A stretch of DNA of 64,000 nucleotides. Origin: Komarekiella atlantica HA4396-MV6 (GTDB lineage: Bacteria; Cyanobacteriota; Cyanobacteriia; Cyanobacteriales; Nostocaceae). The position numbers were made by a program, and so were the translations under genes. Shown here piece after piece: positions 58,100 to 63,441 of this stretch. Positions within the stretch are counted from its first letter, which is position 1. Every line of letters starts with the position of its first letter. Below the pieces are notes generated by a model. The model saw only the letters and a list, made by a program, of their open reading frames with translations. It made no database searches and was not told where the DNA came from. The stretch lies in NCBI GenBank assembly GCA_019359395.1, contig JAHHHK010000040.1, positions 1 to 64,000 of the forward strand, read 5' to 3'.

Positions 58100-60052
58100 T
58101 CAATACACCGGAGTTTGACTAATCACATTTACATTCGGATCGAGATTGTCGCCAGTGCTGTAGATATAATTAAATGCACCTCGATCATCAAGAAGATGCG
58201 ATCGCAAAAATAATCCACTCCAGCGTCCGATCGTCTCAGTTGCCGCGATCTGGCCTAAGGTGGGTCTGTTTGGCTCCCGCTCAGGGTTGTCAACGTTTGT
58301 GATGCCATAGTGGTTCGCACCTTCTACGGTAACTGAGACTTTGGGCGGGTTGAGAATTTGATCGTAAGTTGTTTGACTATTGCTCGATGGAATCACGCCA
58401 TCCAAACTGCCCTGAATCAGCCCGACTGCAATTCCTTCGTTATCGAGCGGCAAAAATTCTCCAGTTAGCTGATCGCGAAAGCTAGTGCCGTAGAAAATAC
58501 CTGCCTGCAACTGGGGCGGCAATGTGTAGTCTTGGGAGCAAATTCCGGGTATGCAAATCTCGTCCTGTGTTGCGCCTAATCCCACGGCTCCGCCAAACGA
58601 GTGCCCCAGGAGTCCTAGTGTTTCGGTATCGGCAATTTCAAAAATCGGTGAAGTCGGATCGGCATCTTCCACTTTCATCTGTTCCAGCACCTCATTCACT
58701 TGCCCTTGCTCAGAAAGTAGACCCGTCACCGTTTCACCATTGGGTGCAGTTAGCGTCCGCTGATTGTTGGGAACCACGACCACAAATCCATAGCTGGCGA
58801 CTTTTTCTGCATAGTTAGAATAGTCTGCTTTATCGACCAAAGCACCTTGCAGCATCAGCGCGATCGGTAGTTGATCCGGTGTTGAATTTGGCAGCACTGG
58901 ATAATACACATCGGCTGGATCGCCATCTGCGGCAATTGTGGTTGTGTAGTGCTTCACCTTGTTATAAATCGGGTCGGGATCGAAGCATGTCTTTTGCTCT
59001 AAATTCAACCGCAGTACCTCTCCCTGTCCTGCAACAAAGCCTTTATTGGAAATGTAAATGTCACCGTCAGCACCAATTTCTAGACCTGTCGGATTCGTTA
59101 GTTCATCGTCTGCGATCGTCGTGCGAGTTTTACCATCGGGAGACACGTAAATCAGCGCACCTGCATCACTGCCATTCAAAATGCCATCCGCATCATATTC
59201 CAGAACATATAAACCGCCAGCGTCATCAAAGGCTAGATCGGTGATATTCGTAAATCCTCCTGCATAGACTTCCGGTTGACCTTCTTCATTGATGCGATAC
59301 ACTTGTGCTGTCTCTGCTTGAAACGGAAACCCAGTTAATTCGCCGACATAGAGAGCGTCATCCGGGCCAACGGCGACTGAGGTGGGTACAGACTGCCGCA
59401 CCACTGCCTCACCCGTGAGCGGATCGGTTGTGGTACGAGTTGGAAAGACTGTTTCTAGAGTCACTTCGCCGCCAAAGGCTTGCTGAGAGAGCAAATCATT
59501 AGCACCTGCATCAATGATGTATGCGGTATTGTCTTTAATCAGCAAGTCATAGAGGTTGGTAATGACATCTTGCCCATCGGGGTTGTTGTTTTGTTCGTAA
59601 GCGCCAAAATCCCGCAGCCTTGTCCAGCCAGCACCGCCGTCAAAGTTATTGATCGCAATTAACTGGCTAAAATCAGGAACTTGTAGCACGTCATCTCGAT
59701 TAGCTGGATTGCTGGCAAGACCCACGATCGCATAGGCGTTTCCATAGGCATCAAACTCAATATCACTGACACCTGATGCATCCGATCCATCGGGTAATGC
59801 CAGCGACGGTAGTCCGGTTACAACTTGTTCTGCAACACCGTTTTGAATTCGAGTAATCGCACCCGTTGCACCATAGAACAAAAACGCGCCCGGTTGACTG
59901 GGAGACGGAATACTAGCACCTGTTCCCCCTCGTCCGGCTTCGGCAACATACAGCGCCCCATCTGGGCCAAAGCTCAGCTTGCGCGGACTATCCAGACCTG
60001 ATGCTAGCACTTCAATTTCTGATATCTGTGGCATTTTTACTGTTTCAGACAT
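58100..60052 (-). CDS. ScyD/ScyE-like beta-propeller fused to C-terminal alpha/beta hydrolase (chlorophyllase/PAF-AH-like)
   Basis: N-terminal 'VLASGLDSPRKLSFGPDGALYVAEAGRGGTGASIPSPSQPGAFLFYGATGAITRIQNG'; C-terminal 'LGLLGHSFGGAVGLGATQDEICIPG' nucleophile elbow. ORF extends to 60163, start at MSETVKMPQ preferred. Confidence 0.85.
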   Translation of the reverse strand: MSETVKMPQISEIEVLASGLDSPRKLSFGPDGALYVAEAGRGGTGASIPSPSQPGAFLFYGATGAITRIQNGVAEQVVTGLPSLALPDGSDASGVSDIEFDAYGNAYAIVGLASNPANRDDVLQVPDFSQLIAINNFDGGAGWTRLRDFGAYEQNNNPDGQDVITNLYDLLIKDNTAYIIDAGANDLLSQQAFGGEVTLETVFPTRTTTDPLTGEAVVRQSVPTSVAVGPDDALYVGELTGFPFQAETAQVYRINEEGQPEVYAGGFTNITDLAFDDAGGLYVLEYDADGILNGSDAGALIYVSPDGKTRTTIADDELTNPTGLEIGADGDIYISNKGFVAGQGEVLRLNLEQKTCFDPDPIYNKVKHYTTTIAADGDPADVYYPVLPNSTPDQLPIALMLQGALVDKADYSNYAEKVASYGFVVVVPNNQRTLTAPNGETVTGLLSEQGQVNEVLEQMKVEDADPTSPIFEIADTETLGLLGHSFGGAVGLGATQDEICIPGICSQDYTLPPQLQAGIFYGTSFRDQLTGEFLPLDNEGIAVGLIQGSLDGVIPSSNSQTTYDQILNPPKVSVTVEGANHYGITNVDNPEREPNRPTLGQIAATETIGRWSGLFLRSHLLDDRGAFNYIYSTGDNLDPNVNVISQTPVY

Positions 60053-60107
60053 AATTTTCTTCCTTATTTTAAGTCGCGATCGTCCATGTTCATGCGAGCC
60101 TGGACAC

Positions 60108-60467
60108 CTAAACAGGTTCCATATACAAGCGTGCCCACTCGATTTGATCGGCTGATATGCCAAGACTGCTCACTCCACGCATCCCAAACGGTGTGCCATC
60201 GCGACGAGTGCTTAACCAATGCCACTCAGCCCAAGCTGTGTCACCCTCAACTGCCGAACGAAGCAACTCTGAGTGAAAGTCTGGGATGTCGTGGAACATG
60301 GCAGACCAATTCTTACGGACATGCTCAACTCCGTGTACAGCCTTCTCAAGATGGGCTGGCTGACCACCCTGAAAGTTAGGTGTAAAACAGGCTAAAAACG
60401 CTTCCAGGTCATGTGCGTTCTGTGCTTTTTGCAGTCGCTCTATGACAATGCTCTGACGGGTTTTCAT
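60108..60467 (-). CDS. NTF2/SnoaL-like protein, copy 1
   Basis: 'RLQKAQNAHDLEAFLACFTPNFQGGQPAHLEKAVHGVEHVRKNWSAMFHDIPDFHSELLRSAVEGDTAWAEWHW'. Confidence 0.85.
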   Translation of the reverse strand: MKTRQSIVIERLQKAQNAHDLEAFLACFTPNFQGGQPAHLEKAVHGVEHVRKNWSAMFHDIPDFHSELLRSAVEGDTAWAEWHWLSTRRDGTPFGMRGVSSLGISADQIEWARLYMEPV

Positions 60468-60559: not shown

Positions 60560-61933
60560 CTATGGTGTGAGATGTCCAACTGTTGAACGAAATATATCGT
60601 CAGGATCGTATCTCCGTTTGAGGTCGAGCAAGCGTTCATAATTCGACCCGAAGGCAAGCGGAACCCGCTCCTGCTCTTGCTCATCCAGGAGACTGATATA
60701 TCCCCCTTTGAAAGCGAATGGTGCAAGTGCCTGCGAGATGTTCTGTGCCCATTGAATGTGCCGCCGATCTTCGTCTTTTGACTGAGGTTCCCAGGCTGCA
60801 ATTAACTCAACCATTAGATGATCCTGACGCAGTGCAAAAGCCGTCTCAGACACACCCACACGACTCGCGGCTCCATGAAAGTTATGAATGTTGATCATCG
60901 AAAACGGGGAAGGTAGTGGCAACCCCTGTTCGATTAGCGCCTCGATTGTCTCAGTTTGGAAACCCTTGAGTGACTGGGTTTGCAGGTAGTAATGGCGACC
61001 TTTCGGAGTAAACGCATCTGCACCATGAATCAGTGCGTGATACGTGACAGGTTGCACCTGATCGACCAGTACAGTACCAAAGGTTCGCAGGGGGGCGATC
61101 GCCTCCTCACCTGCTTCTAGAGAACCACAATAAGTAGGTGAAAGCAACAAAACCGTCTGACCGTCTGGCGTTTGGATGAATCCAGATTGAATCGTCAATT
61201 CATCGGGTGCGGTGGCGATAAACTCGTTGAAACGGTGTAACACTGCTCTCGCCTGCTCCAGAGGATACAGCAGCATCCCTGATAACACCGTCGTCTGTGG
61301 ATGCAGGCGAAACTCCAGGGAAACCACAACGCCAAAGTTGCCACCGCCGCCGCGCAGCCCCCACAGCAAGTCTGGGTGTTCTTCAGCGTTGGCTCTCACA
61401 AGTTGTCCATCGGCAGTGACGACTTGGGCTGACAGCAGGTTATCGGCGACCAGTCCATAAGCACCGATGAGTGAACCATAGCCTCCCCCCAGGGTAAGTC
61501 CTGTCATGCCAACGCTGGAGATAGTCCCTGTGGCTGTTGCTAACCCATATTGCTGTGCTGCTTCGATCAGGTCGCCAGCTGTTGCTCCACCTTGAATTTT
61601 GGCTGTGCGTGTGTCCGGATTAATGGTGACGGCTCTCATCTGCGACAAATCGATCGCAACGCCATTCTCAAACAGCGATCGTCCAAAAATCTCATGTCCT
61701 GCACCACGAACTGAGAGTGGCAATCCCTGCGATCGTGTCCAGCGAATGGTATGAATGACATCTTCCACAGTCAAGCAACGAGCGATCGCGGCGGGTCGAG
61801 TCTTCACTCTGCCGTTCCAGAGTTGGCGCACCTGTTCATAGGCAGCGTCATCCGGGAGAAGAAGCTGATCTCCTCTGAGTACTGCTGCAAGTTCGTTGAA
61901 CAAAGTCCTGTTCTGACTAGGCGTAATTGTCAT
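60560..61933 (-). CDS. FAD-binding (BBE-like) oxidoreductase
   Basis: 'GLPLSVRGAGHEIFGRSLFENGVAIDLSQMRAVTINPDTRTAKIQGGATAGDL', 'LTLGGGYGSLIGAYGLVADNLLSAQVVTADG', 'NYERLLDLKRRYDPDDIFR'. Confidence 0.93.
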   Translation of the reverse strand: MTITPSQNRTLFNELAAVLRGDQLLLPDDAAYEQVRQLWNGRVKTRPAAIARCLTVEDVIHTIRWTRSQGLPLSVRGAGHEIFGRSLFENGVAIDLSQMRAVTINPDTRTAKIQGGATAGDLIEAAQQYGLATATGTISSVGMTGLTLGGGYGSLIGAYGLVADNLLSAQVVTADGQLVRANAEEHPDLLWGLRGGGGNFGVVVSLEFRLHPQTTVLSGMLLYPLEQARAVLHRFNEFIATAPDELTIQSGFIQTPDGQTVLLLSPTYCGSLEAGEEAIAPLRTFGTVLVDQVQPVTYHALIHGADAFTPKGRHYYLQTQSLKGFQTETIEALIEQGLPLPSPFSMINIHNFHGAASRVGVSETAFALRQDHLMVELIAAWEPQSKDEDRRHIQWAQNISQALAPFAFKGGYISLLDEQEQERVPLAFGSNYERLLDLKRRYDPDDIFRSTVGHLTP

Positions 61934-62531: not shown

Positions 62532-62930
62532 TTACTTCAGTGCTGCTGTTGCCTCAATCTCAACCAATGTTTCTTTTGAGGCAAGTGAGGCAACGCCAAT
62601 GCCAGTAACAGCGGGGCGCGATTCTGCCAGAAATTGCGCGAGAATTGGTGCGATCGCCTCCATATGTTCTCCAAGTTCACCCCGGACATAGATGCGAAGG
62701 TGAAGCAAATTCTCTACAGAACTTCCCGCTGCATCCAAGACGATGGTTAGGTTAGTCAGCGCATTAGAGAGTTGACCCTCGACGGTATGGGAAGATACTT
62801 GATGGTTTGTATCCCAGTCAACTTGACCAGAAATGTAAACGATACCGCATCGGGTATCGATAACAGCATGGGACAGTCCGTGCGGTCTGCCATCATAACG
62901 TTGTGGCGGATTGATCAGTTGCTTTCTCAT
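62532..62930 (-). CDS. RidA/YjgF family protein (ORF extends to 62990)
   Basis: 'AVIDTRCGIVYISGQVDWDTNHQVSSHTVEGQLSNALTNLTIVLDAAGSSVENLLHLRIYV'. Confidence 0.9.
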   Translation of the reverse strand: MRKQLINPPQRYDGRPHGLSHAVIDTRCGIVYISGQVDWDTNHQVSSHTVEGQLSNALTNLTIVLDAAGSSVENLLHLRIYVRGELGEHMEAIAPILAQFLAESRPAVTGIGVASLASKETLVEIEATAALK

Positions 62931-62967
62931 GGTATCTATTGTGTAGGAAAGAGCGTTGTAATCGAAT

Positions 62968-63441
62968 TCACGCGATGAATTCGATGCCATACTTGGGGGC
63001 TGCTGCCAAAACTCGCTCGATCGCTTCCGGGGTGGCTGGGCGTGATGAAGCCTCTGGGTCGTCTACTGGAACACCGACTTCGGCAAAGTATTTCTCAATT
63101 CCCGCAGGCATATACCAAACCAACATCTTGGCGCGTTGGTTCGTGATGTTCTTAAAGGTATGCAGGTGTCCCTTCGGCGAATATAAGAAGGTTCCAGGAG
63201 TAGCAATCACAGTTTGATCGCCGAGTTGAAACTCCAGTTCGCCCTCTTGGATATAGAACGCTTCATCTTCTCGATGGTGAATGTGTGGCGGCGGCCCGAT
63301 TTCAGGATCAACTTGCAACTCGAAGAGCGTGTATTGCCCATTGGTATCTTCGCCCACTGCCTTGAAGGTAAGAATATCTCCTACAACTGAGAGGGAATGT
63401 CCTTGACCTGGCTTGAGCAATAGTTCACGAGAGGTAGTCAT
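62968..63441 (-). CDS. Cupin domain protein
   Basis: 'PPHIHHREDEAFYIQEGELEFQLGDQTVIATPGTFLYSPKGHLHTFKN'. Confidence 0.92.
   Translation of the reverse strand: MTTSRELLLKPGQGHSLSVVGDILTFKAVGEDTNGQYTLFELQVDPEIGPPPHIHHREDEAFYIQEGELEFQLGDQTVIATPGTFLYSPKGHLHTFKNITNQRAKMLVWYMPAGIEKYFAEVGVPVDDPEASSRPATPEAIERVLAAAPKYGIEFIA

Follow-up and report, generated by a model that had tools for sequence, protein, structure and literature searches.

One reading frame in the window, by which we mean the whole 64,000-nucleotide stretch of Komarekiella atlantica HA4396-MV6 DNA that was analyzed, joins a ScyD/ScyE-type propeller to an alpha/beta hydrolase of the chlorophyllase/PETase type. Our best explanation, which we consider on balance probable when the propeller role and the history are counted in, is that the gene product is a serine ester hydrolase of two modules located in the cytosol. 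The C-terminal hydrolase, with its intact triad Ser485-Asp551-His581, would be expected to act on a bulky hydrophobic ester by way of an acyl-enzyme, and the N-terminal six-bladed propeller, which stands where the standalone enzymes have a hydrophobic leader, probably binds a substrate or a partner. The fusion would go back to a single event that joined two proteins otherwise exported and in which both signal peptides, as well as the C-terminal tail of the propeller, were lost. It would then have spread patchily among cyanobacteria, and relatives would repeatedly have dropped one of the modules.

Gene and domain architecture

The open reading frame (60052→58103) has 650 codons plus a stop, an ATG start and no internal stop, so that both domains lie in a single polypeptide, as the initial annotation had it. 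A scan for promoters and terminators returned sites no commoner than in shuffled sequences. The features of the gene are:

58100..60052, minus strand: fusion gene, 650 aa, ScyD/E-type propeller plus chlorophyllase/PETase-type hydrolase (ORF, Pfam, NCBIfam, orthologues)
60059..60065, minus strand: Shine-Dalgarno sequence AAGGAAG, 7-13 bases 5' of the fusion ATG (sequence)
59000..60025, minus strand: propeller domain, residues 10-351 (NF033206, AlphaFold2 of the propeller only, Foldseek)
58973..58999, minus strand: short linker, residues 352-360 (pLDDT <50 at 353-355)
58103..58972, minus strand: alpha/beta hydrolase domain, residues 361-650 (PF12740, PF07224, Foldseek, identity to OaCLH)
58598..58600, minus strand: Ser485 codon in the nucleophile elbow GHSFGG, aligned with OaCLH Ser159 (alignment; OaCLH mutants, PMC7802212)
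58400..58402, minus strand: Asp551 codon, aligned with OaCLH Asp226 (alignment)
58310..58312, minus strand: His581 codon, aligned with OaCLH His258 (alignment)
58538..58555, minus strand: Cys500...Cys505 pair of the hydrolase, conserved where hydrolases bear a signal peptide and missing from several that have none

Profile searches recovered both domains that had been called by eye. The NCBIfam profile NF033206 (ScyE_fam; curated cut-off 80 bits) matches residues 14-349 at 361 bits (E=7e-108), over positions 1-332 of its 333, in agreement with a ScyD/ScyE-family propeller in the first ~350 residues. In Pfam, NHL (PF01436) matches the propeller, and PETase (PF12740) and Chlorophyllase (PF07224) match residues ~381-498, each above its curated cut-off. 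This bears out the alpha/beta hydrolase proposed for the last ~300 residues, together with its GHSFGG elbow (residues 483-488) and its late histidine (GANHYG, residues 578-583). A PHROGs search gave no match.

AlphaFold2 predicts two confident domains for the whole fusion (mean pLDDT 91), separated by a low-confidence three-residue linker at 353-355. Foldseek finds the propeller model, which reaches a pTM of 0.90 when computed by itself, to resemble six-bladed NHL/SMP-30-type propellers, and the hydrolase model to resemble PETase/cutinase (TM ~0.77). The pTM of the whole chain is 0.64, which means that the predicted packing of the domains is not reliable and that the model lends no support to cooperation between the modules.

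Occurrence and selection

Full fusions of 70-94% identity are present in at least eight other cyanobacterial genomes from several families. They were found in Nostoc sp. MG11 (94%), Desmonostoc vinosum (89%), Phormidium tenue FACHB-886 (81%), Dulcicalothrix desertica (75%) and Calothrix sp. NIES-4105 (74%), and in genome G175 (80%), whose assembly consists of two contigs, with the fusion on the one of 5.7 Mb. Outside the order of the window, they occur in G574 (two copies), G663 and G620, the last of which has an extra copy with an internal TAG. Some of the genomes given by G numbers are probably the organisms of the named records, so their counts are not additive. The fusion is rare: of 391 genomes sampled from the order, three have it in full, and plasmid records contained the separate halves and not the fusion.

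This rarity is what might speak for two genes joined by an artefact of sequencing, assembly or gene calling, an explanation to which we give next to no credence. Full-length homologues in at least eight other, independent assemblies, including the large contig of G175, refute it and exclude an error confined to a single strain, the outcome that the initial annotation had named as fatal to the fusion. The low dN/dS ratios of both halves also stand against it: among full fusions, Nei-Gojobori estimates range over 0.10-0.16 (propeller) and 0.11-0.26 (hydrolase), and both domains are under purifying selection.

Between the fusion of the window and its relative at L036:5001-6947, dS is 0.16 in the hydrolase but 0.48 in the propeller, and the trees of the two domains differ on the nearest relative. 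From this contrast and the conflict between the trees, recombination or gene conversion inside the fusion gene is probable.

The hydrolase domain

The hydrolase is 53% identical to L018 and nested among cyanobacterial homologues. L018 matches OaCLH, a chlorophyllase from Oscillatoria acuminata PCC 6304 that has been assayed (PMC7802212), in the published length of 325, mass, pI, GRAVY and positions of Ser159, Asp226 and His258. Judged by sequence family and clade, the fusion hydrolase is a member of the cyanobacterial chlorophyllase family. It has the triad (Ser485, Asp551, His581), the GHSxG elbow and the GANHYGITN motif in common with OaCLH. The two differ at the N-terminus: OaCLH is a standalone protein with a 28-aa hydrophobic leader, without which >95% of its activity is gone (PMC7802212), whereas the fusion is leaderless and has the propeller in front of the domain. 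By analogy with this leader dependence, the fusion hydrolase could be weak.

The propeller domain

ScyE is required for scytonemin, and the genome holds a complete scyABCDEF locus on contig C20 (scyA, scyB, scyC, two ScyE_fam genes and scyF). The earlier remark that no scyABC is present is therefore right for the window but not for the genome. In the tree, the propellers of the fusion family form their own clade (100/100), apart from the scy-locus ScyD/E of the same genome. By its sequence, the propeller is thus placed in the ScyD/E family on a branch separate from the scytonemin-locus proteins. An identification of the fusion as the scytonemin-locus ScyD or ScyE itself was rejected, as the gene lies outside the scy operon and in a separate clade.

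The fusion and the ScyD/ScyE family share the full-length profile match and conserved propeller motifs. ScyD/E proteins are exported, most of them with a PEP-CTERM tail, whereas the fusion has no signal peptide, no PEP-CTERM and no propeller Cys pair, and carries an appended hydrolase. ScyE acts in the periplasm (PMC6282210).

Cellular location

Signal peptides were judged by hydropathy. The fusion has no hydrophobic N-terminus (15-residue Kyte-Doolittle maximum 0.54) and no PEP-CTERM match. A hydrophobic leader is present in most of the standalone homologues of each half, and a PEP-CTERM tail as well in most ScyD/E; full fusions, in contrast to these exported relatives, have no hydrophobic N-terminus.

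The cysteines show a related pattern. Every fusion-family propeller examined is missing the Cys pair of the nearest exported ScyD/E. Because three deeper, exported ScyE_fam proteins (L096-L098) are also without it, the propeller pair is supporting evidence and not a strict marker of export. A Fisher test on this pair was dropped, since a single loss on the stem makes its rows dependent on one another and its sample omitted L096-L098. All leader-bearing homologues examined have kept the hydrolase pair; those that lost it are all leaderless, L038, L039, L040, L101, L011 and L034 among them.

Together, the missing leader and PEP-CTERM and the Cys-pair pattern suggest that the fusion protein is probably cytosolic. 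The protein of the window retains its hydrolase Cys pair, as do L036, L037 and L062, and this counts against a cytosolic location.

History of the family

A single origin of the fusion is supported, since the hydrolases of the fusions form one clade (100/99) and the propellers of the fusion family another (100/100). The fusion, and not its propeller-only relatives, is the ancestral state of the family. A parsimony count gives no direction by itself; the direction from fusion to loss follows from remnants of the hydrolase in propeller-only relatives. L002, encoded on contig C27 of the same genome, and its clade end ~35 residues into the hydrolase; L008, L055 and L093 have kept the beginning or end of the hydrolase around a deleted core; and L079 has kept a frameshifted C-terminal piece. 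Scars of the opposite loss are also present: in L010, the first propeller repeat is joined to the last, L065 retains a middle piece of the propeller, and L080 and L081 retain its end. The propeller tree calls for eight or more switches in the state of the hydrolase and rejects the grouping of all hydrolase-less members in one clade.

In the stub clade, the propellers are constrained (dN/dS ~0.14-0.26), and the remnant tails are relaxed (0.55-0.88) in all pairs except one very close pair. The propeller thus has value without the hydrolase, as it has been kept under selection in relatives after the hydrolase was deleted. The L002 gene (G000 C27:43096-44280, context L052) encodes a propeller plus hydrolase stub that is 84% identical to the fusion over residues 1-395, and lies in a cluster with intradiol dioxygenase, DUF981, lipocalin-like, pirin-like and SDR genes.

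Two full-length fusions have no nucleophile serine, L104 of G574 (elbow GDGFGG) and L107 of G620 (elbow GHGLGG). They are sisters (97/99), and the dN/dS of 0.11 between their hydrolase domains at a dS of ~1.1 indicates that constraint outlasted the loss of the nucleophile. G574 also encodes a fusion with an intact elbow, L101. In G620, two tandem fusion-family genes occupy 6634-9792 of L124 (G620:C1); the nucleophile of one is dead, and the other is shortened and has its GHSLGG intact.

Other members have exchanged domains. In L049 and L050 (Dulcicalothrix, Calothrix), a different C-terminal extension replaces the hydrolase; it looked Calx-beta-like by eye, which Pfam did not confirm. The clade sister to the fusion hydrolases contains L119 and L120, in which a DUF7453/NxxGxxAF repeat domain precedes a 66%-identical hydrolase. 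Like the fusion, they carry a repeat domain at the N-terminus and show no obvious signal peptide, but their repeat family is unrelated to the propeller of the fusion. In L118, the same DUF7453/NxxGxxAF domain is joined to a ScyE_fam propeller; L118-L120 thus display module swapping within one protein family.

An old, patchily distributed and unstable fusion family is a better description of these proteins than a one-off recruitment. Tentatively, and with somewhat more doubt than belief, we propose that a ScyD/E-type propeller entered the cytosol when it was joined to a chlorophyllase-type hydrolase, and that this fusion has been a repeated source of propeller-only, hydrolase-only and dead two-domain proteins. 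L104 and L107 would then represent a pseudo-hydrolase that is conserved for binding or regulation, next to intact-elbow paralogues in the same genomes.

Gene neighbourhood

The fusion is the last gene of a same-strand run of alpha/beta hydrolase, cupin, RidA, SnoaL, BBE-type FAD oxidase, SnoaL and fusion. Its upstream members are:

60108..60467, minus strand: SnoaL-like protein, 55 bp upstream of the fusion (Pfam, blastp)
60560..61933, minus strand: FAD-linked oxidase of the BBE type, with counterparts next to fusion-family genes in L036, L084 and L085
62118..62513, minus strand: SnoaL-like protein (Pfam)
62532..62990, minus strand: RidA-family protein, with counterparts close to the fusion in L037, L038 and L124
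62968..63441, minus strand: cupin; also beside family genes in L036, L055 and L085
63590..64000, minus strand: alpha/beta hydrolase, truncated at the window end; blastp groups it with the Abhydrolase_6 protein of L037, the cut piece itself having no Pfam match

The two SnoaL-like proteins, which flank the oxidase, are 84% identical, a local duplication. In related genomes, shuffled sets of SDR, cupin, FAD oxidoreductase, alpha/beta hydrolase, RidA and AraC regulator genes surround the fusion-family gene. A uniform neighbourhood was sought and not found: the enzyme set recurs in shuffled form in the core clade and is absent in Calotrichaceae. Judged from these neighbours, which name no substrate, the fusion is suggested to act in small-molecule metabolism. 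A PapA-like/condensation-type acyltransferase recurs near fusion genes in L037, L085, L124 and L126, and is possibly the ester-making partner of the fusion.

Alternative explanations

The main rival holds that the propeller is the selected part, that the hydrolase is dispensable and often decaying in a family undergoing fission, and that the common function is a non-hydrolytic activity of the propeller, be it binding, scaffolding or a chemistry of its own. The repeated switches in hydrolase state along the propeller tree, the constrained propellers with mostly relaxed stub tails, the stub L002 in the same genome and the two fusions without a nucleophile serine are all consistent with it. Against it, the hydrolase of full fusions with an intact triad is under about the same constraint as their propeller, and in at least three lineages (L010/L012, L065, L080/L081) it was the propeller that disappeared and the hydrolase that stayed, even if some of these look decaying. 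We regard this explanation as rather unlikely, though as one to be taken seriously. The initial annotation saw a propeller recruited for a hydrolytic step, which is plausible, and the propeller is indeed of ScyD/E descent. That reading misses the loss of the export signals of both parents, the selection on the propeller after hydrolase deletion and the nucleophile-less branch.

The protein might instead work like the S9 (prolyl-oligopeptidase) enzymes, with a propeller that caps the active site and filters substrates by size, a convergence from unrelated domains. Acylaminoacyl peptidases and prolyl oligopeptidases have the same order of N-terminal propeller and C-terminal alpha/beta hydrolase, and acylaminoacyl peptidases top the whole-chain Foldseek search (E ~1e-15), ahead of PETases. 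Yet these matches have an rmsd of ~26 A and a TM of ~0.25, so that the fusion model, itself of modest pTM, shows no placement of the domains in common with S9 enzymes, and no N-terminal element is built into the hydrolase. Propeller gating would thus be an analogy drawn from domain order, and we consider it improbable. Membership in the S9 family is rejected, as the domain families are unrelated and the fusion protein (P0001) has no Peptidase_S9 (PF00326) match in Pfam at E up to 1; the homologue L101 scores 18.6 bits for PF00326, below the cut-off of 22.6. More improbable still is that the fusion serves as an additional ScyE in scytonemin or scytonemin-like metabolism. Its profile match to the ScyD/ScyE family and the scyABCDEF locus in the same genome would fit, but the fusion lies outside that locus, its clade is separate from the ScyD/E encoded there, and it has no signal peptide, whereas ScyE acts in the periplasm.

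Significance

Both halves of the protein are known families, and their combination was not found described in the passages covered by a limited literature search. Within the same limits, the search returned no mention of the fusion, of the apparent move to the cytosol, of the repeated module loss or of the nucleophile-less branch, nor was the phrase “ScyD ScyE family” found. The family amounts to a natural experiment in gene fusion and fission, in which either half has been lost several times, the scars can still be read, and one branch without the serine has been conserved. For chlorophyll research, it is relevant that the cyanobacterial chlorophyllase family occurs here in an apparently cytosolic, leaderless form. 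A relative of ScyD/E joined to a testable class of enzyme also offers a handle on what such propellers bind.
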